Part shown: one piece after another, positions 31,998-35,354 of the stretch
Layout of the letters: each line of letters opens with the position of its first letter
Numbering within the stretch: the first letter of the stretch is position 1
From: Halorussus halophilus
Lineage (GTDB): Archaea; Halobacteriota; Halobacteria; Halobacteriales; Haladaptataceae
Length of the DNA stretch: 64,000 nucleotides
Direction of reading: 5' to 3'
NCBI RefSeq assembly: GCF_008831545.1
Contig: NZ_CP044523.1
Location: forward strand, 310,001-374,000
Translations under genes and position numbers: made by a program
Notes under the pieces: generated by a model
Databases searched by the model: none
The model's input: the letters and a program-made list of their open reading frames with translations, nothing else
What the model was told of the DNA's origin: nothing

Positions 31998-32768
31998 ATG
32001 CAAACAATGCAGAAAATACGAGTGGAAGACACACTCTCCCGTAGTTCGGGAGACGTCCCACCAGACGACGCGATACAGGAGTTTCTCGACTTGCTGAACG
32101 AGTTGAAGGCGACTGGCTGTAACCTCCTAGTCGTCGGGGACGAACCGCGCTGTACGTTCACGCGAGCGAGCAAACGACTGTTCGGCGACGCCGAGGCGAT
32201 GCGGTACCGACTGCTCGCGGTCACCGACGCGACGCCGCAGTCGGTCGCCGACAGACTGCCAGACGCCGAATCGACGCCGCGACCGGTCGAGGAGACTACG
32301 CACGTCCTCACGCACGCTCAGACCCCACGGTGCGTGACTACGTCCGAAATTTCGGACTCCCAGCGCGAACTCGCGAGTGTCAGGGAGACCCGTATCGCCG
32401 ACCCCGAACTCTGTGGACTCCAATCGGCGCTCGTGGAGGGCATCGAAACGTTCGCCGACGCCACGCCCCGACTGAGACCCGGAGACCTGCGCGTCGGTAT
32501 CGACTCGCTGGGTTCGCTACTCGACGAGTACGACCAAGCGGTCGTTCGACGGTGTCTCGACACGGTCGGTCGGCACGTCTGCAAGTACGACGGGATGGCC
32601 CACTACGTCCTCCCAGAAGCCTACGACAGCGACCGAGTGCAGTCCCTCCTCGGCGCGTTCGACGCCGTCATCGAGGTCCGGCGAGTCTCCGACGAGTACG
32701 AACACGACGCCGAAGAACGCTGGCACGTGCCCGACGAGGGGTTGACTATCGGTTGGACGCCACTGTAG
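31998..32768 (+). CDS. DUF7504-like protein, first gene of CHAT locus
   Basis: A 256-residue soluble protein. GCNLLVVGDEPRCTFTRASK, then LFGDAEAMRYRLLAVTDATP (about 41-78), matches my memory of the haloarchaeal DUF7504 group, whose members lie near CHAT proteins. The fold may resemble a RecA- or DUF835-like alpha/beta domain, but no Walker A motif is present. Later parts (VGIDSLGSLLDEYDQAVVRRC) are alpha/beta. Very AT-rich promoter DNA at 31967-31984 is unusual for the region; the box TATAAATA at 31977 would favour a leaderless start at the second ATG, 32007. Confidence 0.65.
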   Translation: MQTMQKIRVEDTLSRSSGDVPPDDAIQEFLDLLNELKATGCNLLVVGDEPRCTFTRASKRLFGDAEAMRYRLLAVTDATPQSVADRLPDAESTPRPVEETTHVLTHAQTPRCVTTSEISDSQRELASVRETRIADPELCGLQSALVEGIETFADATPRLRPGDLRVGIDSLGSLLDEYDQAVVRRCLDTVGRHVCKYDGMAHYVLPEAYDSDRVQSLLGAFDAVIEVRRVSDEYEHDAEERWHVPDEGLTIGWTPL

Positions 32769-32770
32769 CC

Positions 32771-32831
32771 GACTCGGCTTCGTTCTCTGCGGACTCGGCT
32801 TCGTTCTCGCCGCTCGGCCTCGTTCTTCGAC
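32771..32831 (+). repeat. Short tandem repeat of about 21 nt
   Basis: Two nearly identical 21-nt units (32771-32791 and 32792-32812, both with GACTCGGCTTCGTTCTC) and a third diverged copy fill most of the gap between the DUF7504-like gene and the CHAT gene. No function is claimed. Confidence 0.6.
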
Positions 32832-32943
32832 CGCGTTCTCCGATTTCTTCCGCTGAGCAATCCTACCTTGAGTACGACGGGGAAGCTATTTTACGGTTGC
32901 ACTGACAGCAGTAACTAGACCTTTCGCCGTGTCGCCACTAGCC

Positions 32944-35115
32944 ATGTCTCCGGAGATAACCCGTCTGAACGACGCCCACGGCGTCGAAATCGTGGACCCG
33001 ATAGAGTCGCGTCGGTTCACGATACGGACCACGGGTGCGGTCTCGCCGACGCCAGGGACTACCGGAGCGTTCGCGTTTCCCGTCGAGACGGTCCGTCGAA
33101 TCGAAACCCGAGGACTCGTACTCCCGTACGCGATTCCGATGGACCTCCGGACAGCCGACGGCGACCACTGTGCCGACATCAGTCCACCAGTCTCCGAGCG
33201 GTTCCCCGACGACGAGTATCTGATCGAACTCCACGCACCCATCAAACTGTACTTCCGCGTGGACGGCGCGTTCGGCATCGAGGCTGGCACCGACGAAGTC
33301 CGGATTTGCTTCGACGATTCGACAGTCGTCTCGGTCGGTGCGCGGTCGTACCACAGTTCTCCGGCGACGACTATCACGGTCCCGGACGACCCGGCGGCGT
33401 TGTTGCAGGCCGTCGAGACGTTCTCCTCGACGCTGAAGACGACGAGTCCCGAGCGGAGTTTCCCGACGCTTCGTGGGCACCCGCCAGCACTCGAACGTGG
33501 CGACAGACTCTCTATTCCCGACGAACTGAGGAGACCCGACACCGGCGTGCAGCTGCATCTCCCGGCCGAATACGAGTACGTCTACCCTGCCGCGCCGTTG
33601 GCGTTCTACCTCGGCGCGGAACTGCTGGTTGACGAGAAGCCGGGCGTGACGACCGACAGCGGGTTCGTCCGTACGCTCCCGGAGGGCGTCGAGGAGTTCA
33701 ACGACGCTGTCGCCAGTCTCCTCAAGCGCGTCTTCCTGCTCGACTGCGTGACTCGGACCGAGGGATTCTACCCCGTAGACCTCGCCGAGCGGCGAGTCGT
33801 CGAGTCCCACGTCGAACTCGACTTTTCGACGCTGTACGAGGCGTCAATCGACGAGCGGCTCGAAGCCTACGCGTCGGTTCCCGACGACGTGATTTCGGAA
33901 GCCTTGCCGGAGTGGCACCGAGCGACCCACGTCCGGCCGAACGCCGACGGTATCGGATTGCTCCCGTATCTGGTCTACGACCTATCGCTCGTCTACGCCA
34001 AGCCGAAACGCGACGAATCGTGGGAGCCGACCGAAGCCCAGCGCAAGACGCAGGCAGCCATCGAGGAGTTCCACCGCTCTACCAGCGAGGCGGAACTCGT
34101 CCGCTCCGCGCGTGGTGGGACCAACACAGTGGGCGACGACCTCCGCTCGATTCGCAGTGGCGACGGTGACGAGGCCACGGCACCCGGTATTCCCGACCTC
34201 GACGAGTACATCTCGCTCCCCGAGGTGGACGCACTCGAACAAGCGTGGGTCGGCGACGGAACGCCGATTCACGGCGCGAAACTGCTCGAAGAAGCGTTCG
34301 AGCGCGACCCGCCGGAGGCCGCAGACGGCACCATCGACATCACCGTCGTCTGCAACGACGAGAAGATGCGCAAAGAGTGGGACACCGCCAGCGAGGTGTA
34401 CGCGAGCCGTGACGACATTCTGGTGGACGTAGATACGCGGTTCGACGTTTCGACAGCGGAGTTACGGGAGTTGCTAGAACGAGAGACCGACGTACTGCAC
34501 TTCATCGGCCACATCGACGGTGCCGGGTTCAAGTGTTCGGATGGAATTCTGAACGCCGAAGAATCGGACCTCTCCGTGGGCGTGACGACGTTATTGCTGA
34601 ACGGCTGTCGCTCGCACGACCAAGGTATCGCGCTGGTGAAACAGGGTGCGAGTGCAACTGTAGCGAGTCTCTGGGACTTGCCGAACAGTGCTGCGGTGGA
34701 AGTCGGCGAGACGTTTGCGAGATTGTTGAACTACGGATTCACAGTCGGTAGTGCTGTGAAGATAGTCGAAGATTTTCTGCTCATTGGCCGGGAGTACGTC
34801 GTTTTAGGAGACTGGATGGCCGCAATTTCGCAGTGTGAGTACGGGGTCCCAAGAGTTTACGAAATAACAAAATCAGATGGAAATAAAAGGGAAATAGAAT
34901 TCAAGAATATAGATTATCCCACGAGGATACATAACGTGGGTTCACTAACAATACCTTACGGAGATGAAAGAAACAAGGAATTCCTTGCTATAGGCGAAAG
35001 CTCTAAGCACACAGTCTCAGACGATTCATTTCATAATCTCCTTGTCTCAGACACGGAACCAGTCGTAATCGATAAGGAATTGAATTGGCTCTGTGGTTGG
35101 GAATTCAACAACTAA
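32944..35115 (+). CDS. CHAT-domain cysteine protease (caspase-like)
   Basis: A 723-residue protein with a C-terminal CHAT (caspase HetF associated with TPRs) domain. The catalytic His523 lies in VLHFIGHIDG and Cys555 in LLNGCRSHDQG, and ATVASLWDLPNSAAVEVGETFARLLNYG completes the fold. The first ~410 residues are a family-specific region with no TPR seen; SLPEVDALEQAWVGDG leads into the protease. The last ~80 residues are polar and encoded by AT-rich DNA (about 39% GC at 34861-35100 against about 68% at 34141-34200). ATG 32944 is used; GTG 32929 is possible. The target is unknown. Confidence 0.85.
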   Translation: MSPEITRLNDAHGVEIVDPIESRRFTIRTTGAVSPTPGTTGAFAFPVETVRRIETRGLVLPYAIPMDLRTADGDHCADISPPVSERFPDDEYLIELHAPIKLYFRVDGAFGIEAGTDEVRICFDDSTVVSVGARSYHSSPATTITVPDDPAALLQAVETFSSTLKTTSPERSFPTLRGHPPALERGDRLSIPDELRRPDTGVQLHLPAEYEYVYPAAPLAFYLGAELLVDEKPGVTTDSGFVRTLPEGVEEFNDAVASLLKRVFLLDCVTRTEGFYPVDLAERRVVESHVELDFSTLYEASIDERLEAYASVPDDVISEALPEWHRATHVRPNADGIGLLPYLVYDLSLVYAKPKRDESWEPTEAQRKTQAAIEEFHRSTSEAELVRSARGGTNTVGDDLRSIRSGDGDEATAPGIPDLDEYISLPEVDALEQAWVGDGTPIHGAKLLEEAFERDPPEAADGTIDITVVCNDEKMRKEWDTASEVYASRDDILVDVDTRFDVSTAELRELLERETDVLHFIGHIDGAGFKCSDGILNAEESDLSVGVTTLLLNGCRSHDQGIALVKQGASATVASLWDLPNSAAVEVGETFARLLNYGFTVGSAVKIVEDFLLIGREYVVLGDWMAAISQCEYGVPRVYEITKSDGNKREIEFKNIDYPTRIHNVGSLTIPYGDERNKEFLAIGESSKHTVSDDSFHNLLVSDTEPVVIDKELNWLCGWEFNN

Positions 35116-35243
35116 GGCCCCGTATTTACTCCATCAGCGACCACTGGCCCCGCCTGCGCGACCAACAACGTCGCCGCCCAGAGTGCGCCCATCAGTTTCG
35201 GGTTATCCATGACCTTCGCTTTGAGTTCGTTGGTTTGAACCAT
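35112..35243 (-). CDS. DUF7503-like 43-residue hydrophobic peptide facing the CHAT gene
   Basis: A 43-residue product that begins MVQTNELKAKVMDNPKLMGA, continues with one hydrophobic helix (GALWAATLLVAQAGPVVA) and ends NTGP. The NPK..GA...LL.QAG pattern and terminal Gly-Pro fit the haloarchaeal DUF7503 group. ATG 35243 has a strong GGAGGT site 4-9 nt upstream, which the longer frame start at 35315 lacks. Its stop codon overlaps that of the CHAT gene on the other strand. It could be a membrane-active or secreted peptide processed by the protease, but that is a hypothesis. Confidence 0.65.
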   Translation of the reverse strand: MVQTNELKAKVMDNPKLMGALWAATLLVAQAGPVVADGVNTGP

Positions 35244-35354
35244 TGTACCTCCAACTCGGACGCGAACCGTCGTCTGCCTTGCTAAATATTCCAAATATAA
35301 ACACTCAAGTAACAAGACTCCGGCCTGGCCGCCGGTTCAAAGACTCAGCACATT

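Follow-up and report, generated by a model that had tools for sequence, protein, structure and literature searches.

The genome of Halorussus halophilus carries, within the window considered here (the whole 64,000-nucleotide stretch of contig NZ_CP044523.1 that was analyzed, positions 310,001 to 374,000), a compact locus in which the gene of a caspase-like CHAT protease converges on that of a 43-residue hydrophobic peptide of the family DUF7503, with a DUF7504 gene upstream of the protease. Open reading frames and Pfam matches place the three genes where a preliminary description of the locus had put them. The abutting 3' ends of the protease and peptide genes form one sharply bounded hypervariable segment of ~300 nucleotides, which may encode the matched ends of a ligand and its receptor. 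The principal features, in window coordinates, are as follows.

31998-32768, forward strand: DUF7504 gene (PF24336), 256 amino acids (Pfam E = 1.5e-41)
32944-35115, forward strand: CHAT (separase/gingipain-like) protease gene, 723 amino acids from the ATG, with an alternative GTG start at 32929
33424-33486, forward strand: CHAT residues 161-181, SSTLKTTSPERSFPTLRGHPP, the best-conserved stretch (mean column entropy 0.63 over block 161-180)
34510-34512, forward strand: codon of catalytic His523, invariant in 89 of 89 homologues
34606-34608, forward strand: codon of catalytic Cys555, invariant in 89 of 89 homologues
34831-35135, no strand assigned: putative hypervariable specificity cassette, comprising the ~93 last CHAT codons, the overlapping stop codons and the variable peptide tail
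34831-35112, forward strand: hypervariable, beta-rich CHAT C-terminal domain of low GC content, residues 630-723
35112-35243, reverse strand: DUF7503 peptide gene (PF24335), 43 amino acids, convergent (Pfam E = 1.6e-10)
35136-35243, reverse strand: conserved peptide leader MVQTNELKAKVMDNPKLMGALWAATLLVAQAGPVVA, with (N/H)P(K/R), a hydrophobic core, Gly at -5 and an (A/V)-x-A site
35115-35135, reverse strand: predicted released peptide DGVNTGP, variable residues with a C-terminal Gly-Pro

The Protease and the Peptide

The 723-residue protein scores 20.7 bits for Pfam CHAT (PF12770), under the curated cut-off of 24, and it is by its modeled fold and its His/Cys dyad that it is classed here as a divergent member of the CHAT family (clan CD). 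Its AlphaFold2 model has a mean predicted local distance difference test (pLDDT) score of 88.7, with Foldseek matches to separase (8.8e-7), SAVED-CHAT (4.1e-6) and the gingipain R protease RgpB (4.5e-5). The dyad described earlier as intact is present and, as listed, invariant among the homologues. Likewise borne out is the reported absence of TPR from the N-terminal part, for which Pfam gives no match and which is beta-rich in the model. Conservation within the protein is highest in SALKTTSPERSxPTLRGHPP at residues 161-181, which lies outside the protease domain; a CHAT-family N-terminal region is also included in a 1465-residue open reading frame of a Halobacterium sp. (L024:3592-7989). No stretch of the CHAT protein is as hydrophobic as the DUF7503 peptide, and the protein is apparently cytosolic.

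The peptide matches DUF7503 with 40.9 bits (cut-off 27). Its leader shows strong purifying selection, with ratios of nonsynonymous to synonymous polymorphism (pN/pS) of 0.08-0.23, which indicates a real protein gene. Of 116 peptides, all but one have 30-33 residues between the (H/N)P(R/K) motif and the C terminus. After the hydrophobic core come Gly at -5 (94 of 116), Ala or Val at -3, any residue at -2 and either Ala or Gly at -1. Ala/Val at -3 with Ala/Gly at -1 is the textbook pattern for signal peptidase I. The (A/V)-x-(A/G) pattern occurs in 90 of 94 nonredundant peptides, as compared with a mean of 22 (maximum 37) when the c-region is shuffled. The peptide is thus probably exported after a signal-peptidase cut that would leave a tail of 7-10 residues. 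This distal part is where the family diversifies: the last 8 residues take 108 distinct forms among 116 peptides, while a C-terminal Gly-Pro is found in 111. The peptides of loci L083, L094, L117 and L118 end instead in KTID, GTVT, STIG and TTIV.

A Conserved Convergent Pair

Among 145 haloarchaeal genomes, CHAT is found in 131 and DUF7503 in 120, and all 120 are among the 131 (Fisher p = 4e-13 for co-occurrence). For the cross-genus DUF7503 loci, CHAT converges on the peptide gene in each of the best 30, and the same holds for 59 of 60 loci from ~50 genera. The stop codons, which overlap in the window (CTAA at 35112-35115), lie within 25 nucleotides of each other in 44 of the 59 convergent loci and within 261 nucleotides in all 59. 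CHAT and DUF7503 are therefore a real and ancient unit, and the earlier suggestion that the peptide is a dedicated partner of the protease stands. The suggestion of a recurring unit holds for this pair but does not extend to the trio, as DUF7504 lies directly upstream of CHAT in 20 of the 60 loci.

The genome of Halorussus halophilus contains 13 CHAT paralogues, with 17 DUF7504 and 7 DUF7503 matches, and paralogous peptides within one genome differ in their tails. A tandem pair of same-strand DUF7503 genes adjoins a CHAT gene at G012:C1:486534-486796. Among the CHAT genomes examined that are without the peptide, CHAT belongs in two to a separate active clade (clade B, with a GHC/GSY motif), in one the protein is catalytically dead, in one the gene is broken, and in genus g43 CHAT is intact. 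Unpaired copies that have lost the His/Cys pair, and are thus pseudoenzymes, include L176, L172, L178, L179 and others (L180-L185). In genome G048, which is without DUF7503, CHAT is apparently split into two overlapping frames (L173 and L177) beside DUF7504, and protease and peptide seem to have been lost together. Large plasmids also carry CHAT genes, in Halorussus salilacus and Haladaptatus pallidirubidus (L200 and L201). Neither has a peptide gene listed 3' of it, and a HalOD1-output-domain gene lies directly upstream in L201.

A Hypervariable Segment Spanning Both Gene Ends

How the two genes vary was measured in five within-genus groups of 5 to 14 loci each, in which species of one genus are compared. 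Identity within a genus is 76-94% over the CHAT core (residues 61-618) and falls to 42-64% over the last ~93 residues, the paired values for core and C terminus being 0.94/0.48, 0.81/0.42, 0.76/0.64, 0.88/0.57 and 0.88/0.59. The peptide mirrors this organization, with identities of 0.89-0.94 in the leader and 0.49-0.66 over the 6 residues that precede the terminal Gly-Pro. In the nucleotide sequence there is an abrupt fall from ~0.9 to ~0.5 identity, some 270-300 nucleotides ahead of the CHAT stop, and ~0.9 is reached again within the peptide leader. The cassette listed above is recognized by this sharp drop in all five groups together with a contrast in GC content at third codon positions (GC3), which over 129 genes averages 0.60 in the C terminus as compared with 0.80 in the core (p = 2e-20) and which at the window locus is 0.40 in the cassette and 0.78 in the core. 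The variable CHAT domain mostly keeps a length of 89-93 residues and retains G666, P706 and W715; it is not decaying.

In two of the groups, g10 (rho = -0.28) and g7 (rho = 0.23), identity in the C-terminal domain bears little relation to core identity. It does track identity in the peptide tail after core identity is allowed for, with partial correlations of 0.38-0.80 across all five groups (p = 0.053, 0.004, 0.008, 0.019 and 0.097; Fisher-combined p = 2e-5).

A natural control is provided by one genus, g10, eight species of which have an additional CHAT gene that is not paired with a peptide. The C-terminal domain of this paralogue is conserved (blocks from residue 561 on are 0-0.15 divergent) and is not AT-rich (GC3 0.78), whereas ~55% of the C-terminal positions differ in the CHAT that these eight species pair with a peptide. 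Because the peptide-less paralogue is conserved in the same genomes, hypervariability in this genus goes with peptide pairing and is no inherent property of the domain.

Several routes to such variation were considered and rejected. A diversity-generating retroelement is contradicted by the absence from the genome of an RVT_1 reverse transcriptase, and protein and DNA searches turned up neither a template nor a silent cassette. As the sole cause, positive selection acting on amino acids is incompatible with the saturation of synonymous sites in the variable part. As synonymous divergence is saturated as well, the pattern looks more like exchange or replacement of alleles, or the long retention of divergent ones, than like point-by-point positive selection. 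Wholesale swapping of cassettes across genera was also discarded: C-terminal identity exceeds core identity in just 15 of 5605 cross-genus pairs. Best hits fall within the own genus about as often for the C terminus (75 of 103) as for the core (79 of 103), and from these two results exchange or diversification appears to have proceeded mostly within genera.

A Candidate Ligand-Receptor Pair and Its Alternatives

Conserved machinery is combined with variable ends, apparently for recognition, that share one putatively exchangeable segment, and it is for this reason that the two genes are read as encoding a ligand and its receptor. As the best single account, offered tentatively, they would constitute a polymorphic recognition system of two genes, a hypervariable peptide and a CHAT protease, that serves self-identity or pheromone signaling. 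The more specific proposal, that it is a polymorphic peptide pheromone or self/non-self system of archaea whose receptor is a caspase-like protease and whose two ends are exchanged together, is made with somewhat greater reserve.

In such a system the DUF7503 leader would act as a Sec-type signal peptide, as its residue pattern suggests, and signal peptidase would cut after (A/V)-x-A to release a peptide of 7-10 residues ending in Gly-Pro, here DGVNTGP. The tail may return to the cytosol through an oligopeptide transporter or, less likely, may be sensed before release as an unprocessed, membrane-anchored tail. Recognition of the cognate peptide by the hypervariable C-terminal domain of the cytosolic protease would then turn the proteolytic activity of the His/Cys dyad on or off. 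Because the genes converge, the layout would allow a single recombination event to swap the specificities of ligand and receptor jointly, and expanded genomes such as this one, with its 13 CHAT genes, could run several insulated paralogous channels. Where DUF7504 is present, it might be a regulatory partner or a substrate. The most likely use of the whole would be pheromone signaling or the signaling of self/non-self (kin).

A number of observations weigh against this interpretation. One weak point is topology, as an exported tail must meet an apparently cytosolic CHAT protein. For a signal peptide the n-regions carry little positive charge, while the conserved SQAG and H/N-P-R/K residues go beyond generic signal needs; 5 of the 116 peptides are without Gly-Pro. 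Physical linkage alone could produce the correlation between tail and C terminus, which is supportive rather than proof, and the saturated synonymous sites count on the same side. In genus g43 (L166 in genome G080, and genome G135), an intact, high-scoring CHAT of the paired clade exists although both genomes are without a DUF7503 match; at L166, none lies beside the CHAT gene. The locus could also regulate an intracellular process with no role between cells.

The strongest rival assigns the peptide the role of a membrane-tethered self-inhibitor, much as in a toxin-antitoxin pair. On this account, which is unlikely but deserves serious weight, the DUF7503 peptide would restrain a suicidal CHAT protease at the membrane by docking its variable tail in the variable C-terminal domain, and proteolysis would be unleashed once a virus or membrane damage removes or displaces the peptide. 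An inhibitor of this kind would be consistent with the obligate pairing of CHAT with DUF7503, with the matched specificity of tail and C terminus, with a need for insulated pairs among paralogues, with a leader conserved far beyond the needs of a signal peptide, and with catalytically dead CHAT paralogues that have no peptide. It fits poorly with the active clade-B CHAT genes and the g43 CHAT that have no peptide either, and the (A/V)-x-A pattern just before the tail leads one to expect that the tail is exported. Moreover, single-copy orthologues diversify too, for which insulation among paralogues offers no explanation.

Less probable again is the role proposed in the preliminary description, in which the peptide is a substrate or membrane-active toxin cut by CHAT in the manner of gasdermins or of Csx29/Csx30, for instance after the Arg or Lys of (H/N)P(R/K). 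The peptide is indeed a hydrophobic helix, the nearest folds of the protease include the Arg-specific proteases separase and gingipain R, and the candidate cleavage position is basic in 111 of 116 peptides; in the other 5, however, it is Gln or Glu. A site near the leader would leave the variable distal tail and the CHAT C terminus unexplained, and neither Pfam nor PADLOC gives a gasdermin or defense-system match. A role as substrate or toxin is possible but less well supported, as a conserved leader with a hypervariable tail matched by a variable CHAT C terminus fits a peptide-receptor pair better.

Marginally less credible still is an immune sensor, in which the C-terminal domain diversifies in an arms race with viral inhibitors or with the invaders it senses and the tail varies as a hitchhiker on exchanged DNA. 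CHAT is a common effector of conflict systems (PMC10907252), hypervariable C-terminal sensors are typical of such systems, and the cassette is AT-rich. A hitchhiker would not be expected to diverge as one block of fixed length with conserved flanks and a retained Gly-Pro, and the sensor leaves unexplained both the convergent pairing in 59 of 60 loci and the conserved C terminus of the peptide-less paralogue; further, no CHAT relatives occur in viral contigs or phage records, and PADLOC has no match. Very improbable, finally, is an artefact of mutation or annotation, in which gene ends drift at convergent stops and AT-rich intergenic DNA inflates divergence: a low-GC cassette does span both gene ends, but the idea is largely refuted by the paralogue without a peptide, which conserves the same domain in eight of these genomes, and the C-terminal length and structural residues, tail length and Gly-Pro are all kept in a domain that AlphaFold2 folds with mostly good confidence.

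Relation to Known Systems

Read as a ligand and its receptor, the pair resembles RRNPPA systems of the Rap-Phr type (PMC9765709, PMC11343458) in having a small precursor that adjoins a cytosolic receptor, a C-terminal oligopeptide that is exported (here by prediction) and, in G012, tandem duplicated propeptides. The receptors of RRNPPA systems are built of TPR, whereas here a caspase-like protease is the candidate receptor, its N-terminal part being beta-rich and without a TPR match in Pfam; RRNPPA genes are codirectional, whereas those described here are convergent and archaeal, and the peptide ends in Gly-Pro. In the ComQXP pherotype locus of Bacillus (PMC4408185), polymorphism is sharply bounded at the ligand and receptor ends and incongruent with the rest of the genome. 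Here, bounded co-divergence of candidate ligand and receptor is seen between species, whereas pherotypes are polymorphisms among strains of one species. ComQXP also employs an isoprenyl transferase and a histidine kinase, in contrast to a cytosolic protease as candidate receptor with DUF7504, BAT/HTH_10 and archaeosine genes as neighbors.

The protease fold and His/Cys dyad are common to the SAVED-CHAT filament (8tl0), Craspase Csx29 (7y84), separase and gingipain R. Unlike these, the protein has no SAVED, TPR match or CRISPR partner, and it has a unique N-terminal region of ~410 residues containing SPERSxPTLRGHPP as well as the variable C-terminal domain. Bacterial gasdermin-protease pairs likewise set a caspase-like protease beside a hydrophobic partner, but the partner here is a signal peptide-like DUF7503 of 43 residues with a variable tail, not a gasdermin, and no such pair is matched by Pfam or PADLOC. 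Conflict systems with CHAT effectors that are diversified by retroelements (PMC10907252) share the CHAT family and a targeted variable C-terminal region; here the genome has no reverse transcriptase and no template or silent copy, and the variation includes synonymous changes.

The peptide and the upstream gene are members of the Pfam families DUF7503 and DUF7504, which have no assigned function. Among open-licence papers, none was found on either family and none that joins a CHAT domain with haloarchaea or Haloferax volcanii, in keeping with the earlier statement that the function is undescribed; this suggests that no self-recognition or pheromone system of this composition has been described in archaea in that literature.

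Haloarchaea mate by cell fusion, for which self-recognition would have an obvious use. Archaeal cell-cell signals and their receptors are largely unknown, and the locus offers a candidate ligand-receptor pair in most haloarchaea that is testable, as the predicted peptide sequences could be synthesized. The signal for disk formation in Haloferax volcanii, for comparison, is described merely as a small molecule (PMC12240190). If the proposal is correct, most haloarchaea would have such a system and some genomes several parallel channels, and a caspase-fold protease linked to hypervariable recognition in archaea would bear on the origins of allorecognition and regulated cell death.

Genomic Setting and Accessory Features

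The defense-island setting, raised earlier as a point to check, is not supported. Archaeosine tRNA-modification genes (TGT-family proteins) flank the locus on both sides, and PADLOC yields nothing convincing, with no match for the locus and one weak match (E = 0.006) among 64 relatives; the locus is therefore not in a defense island. A BAT/HTH_10 regulator gene, recognized by Pfam, adjoins it, and an NCBIfam search gave nothing useful for the locus proteins.

DUF7504 is an optional neighbor of the CHAT/DUF7503 unit. Besides the cross-genus counts given above, it lies directly upstream of CHAT in 6 of 13 loci of the own genome, where the majority of its 17 genes are not at CHAT loci. Loci without it have no fixed upstream partner, the neighbors being AAA/Cdc6-like proteins, unrelated enzymes or unannotated genes. 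The DUF7504 protein (143.3 bits, cut-off 27) has no recognizable Walker A motif (P-loop) and is modeled with a KaiC/RecA-like fold (pLDDT 81.6; best Foldseek match KaiC, 3.7e-8).

Two signals precede the peptide gene. The strong ribosome site noted in the preliminary description is real in the window (GGAGGT) but is not conserved among relatives, and a conserved Shine-Dalgarno sequence was consequently dropped as support for the gene; a TATA-like element is more widely retained.

35247-35252, reverse strand: Shine-Dalgarno sequence GGAGGT of the peptide gene, kept in 16 of 119 relatives
35293-35301, reverse strand: TATA-like box TTTATATTT, 5' of the peptide gene, with a TATA-like element in 92 of 119 relatives

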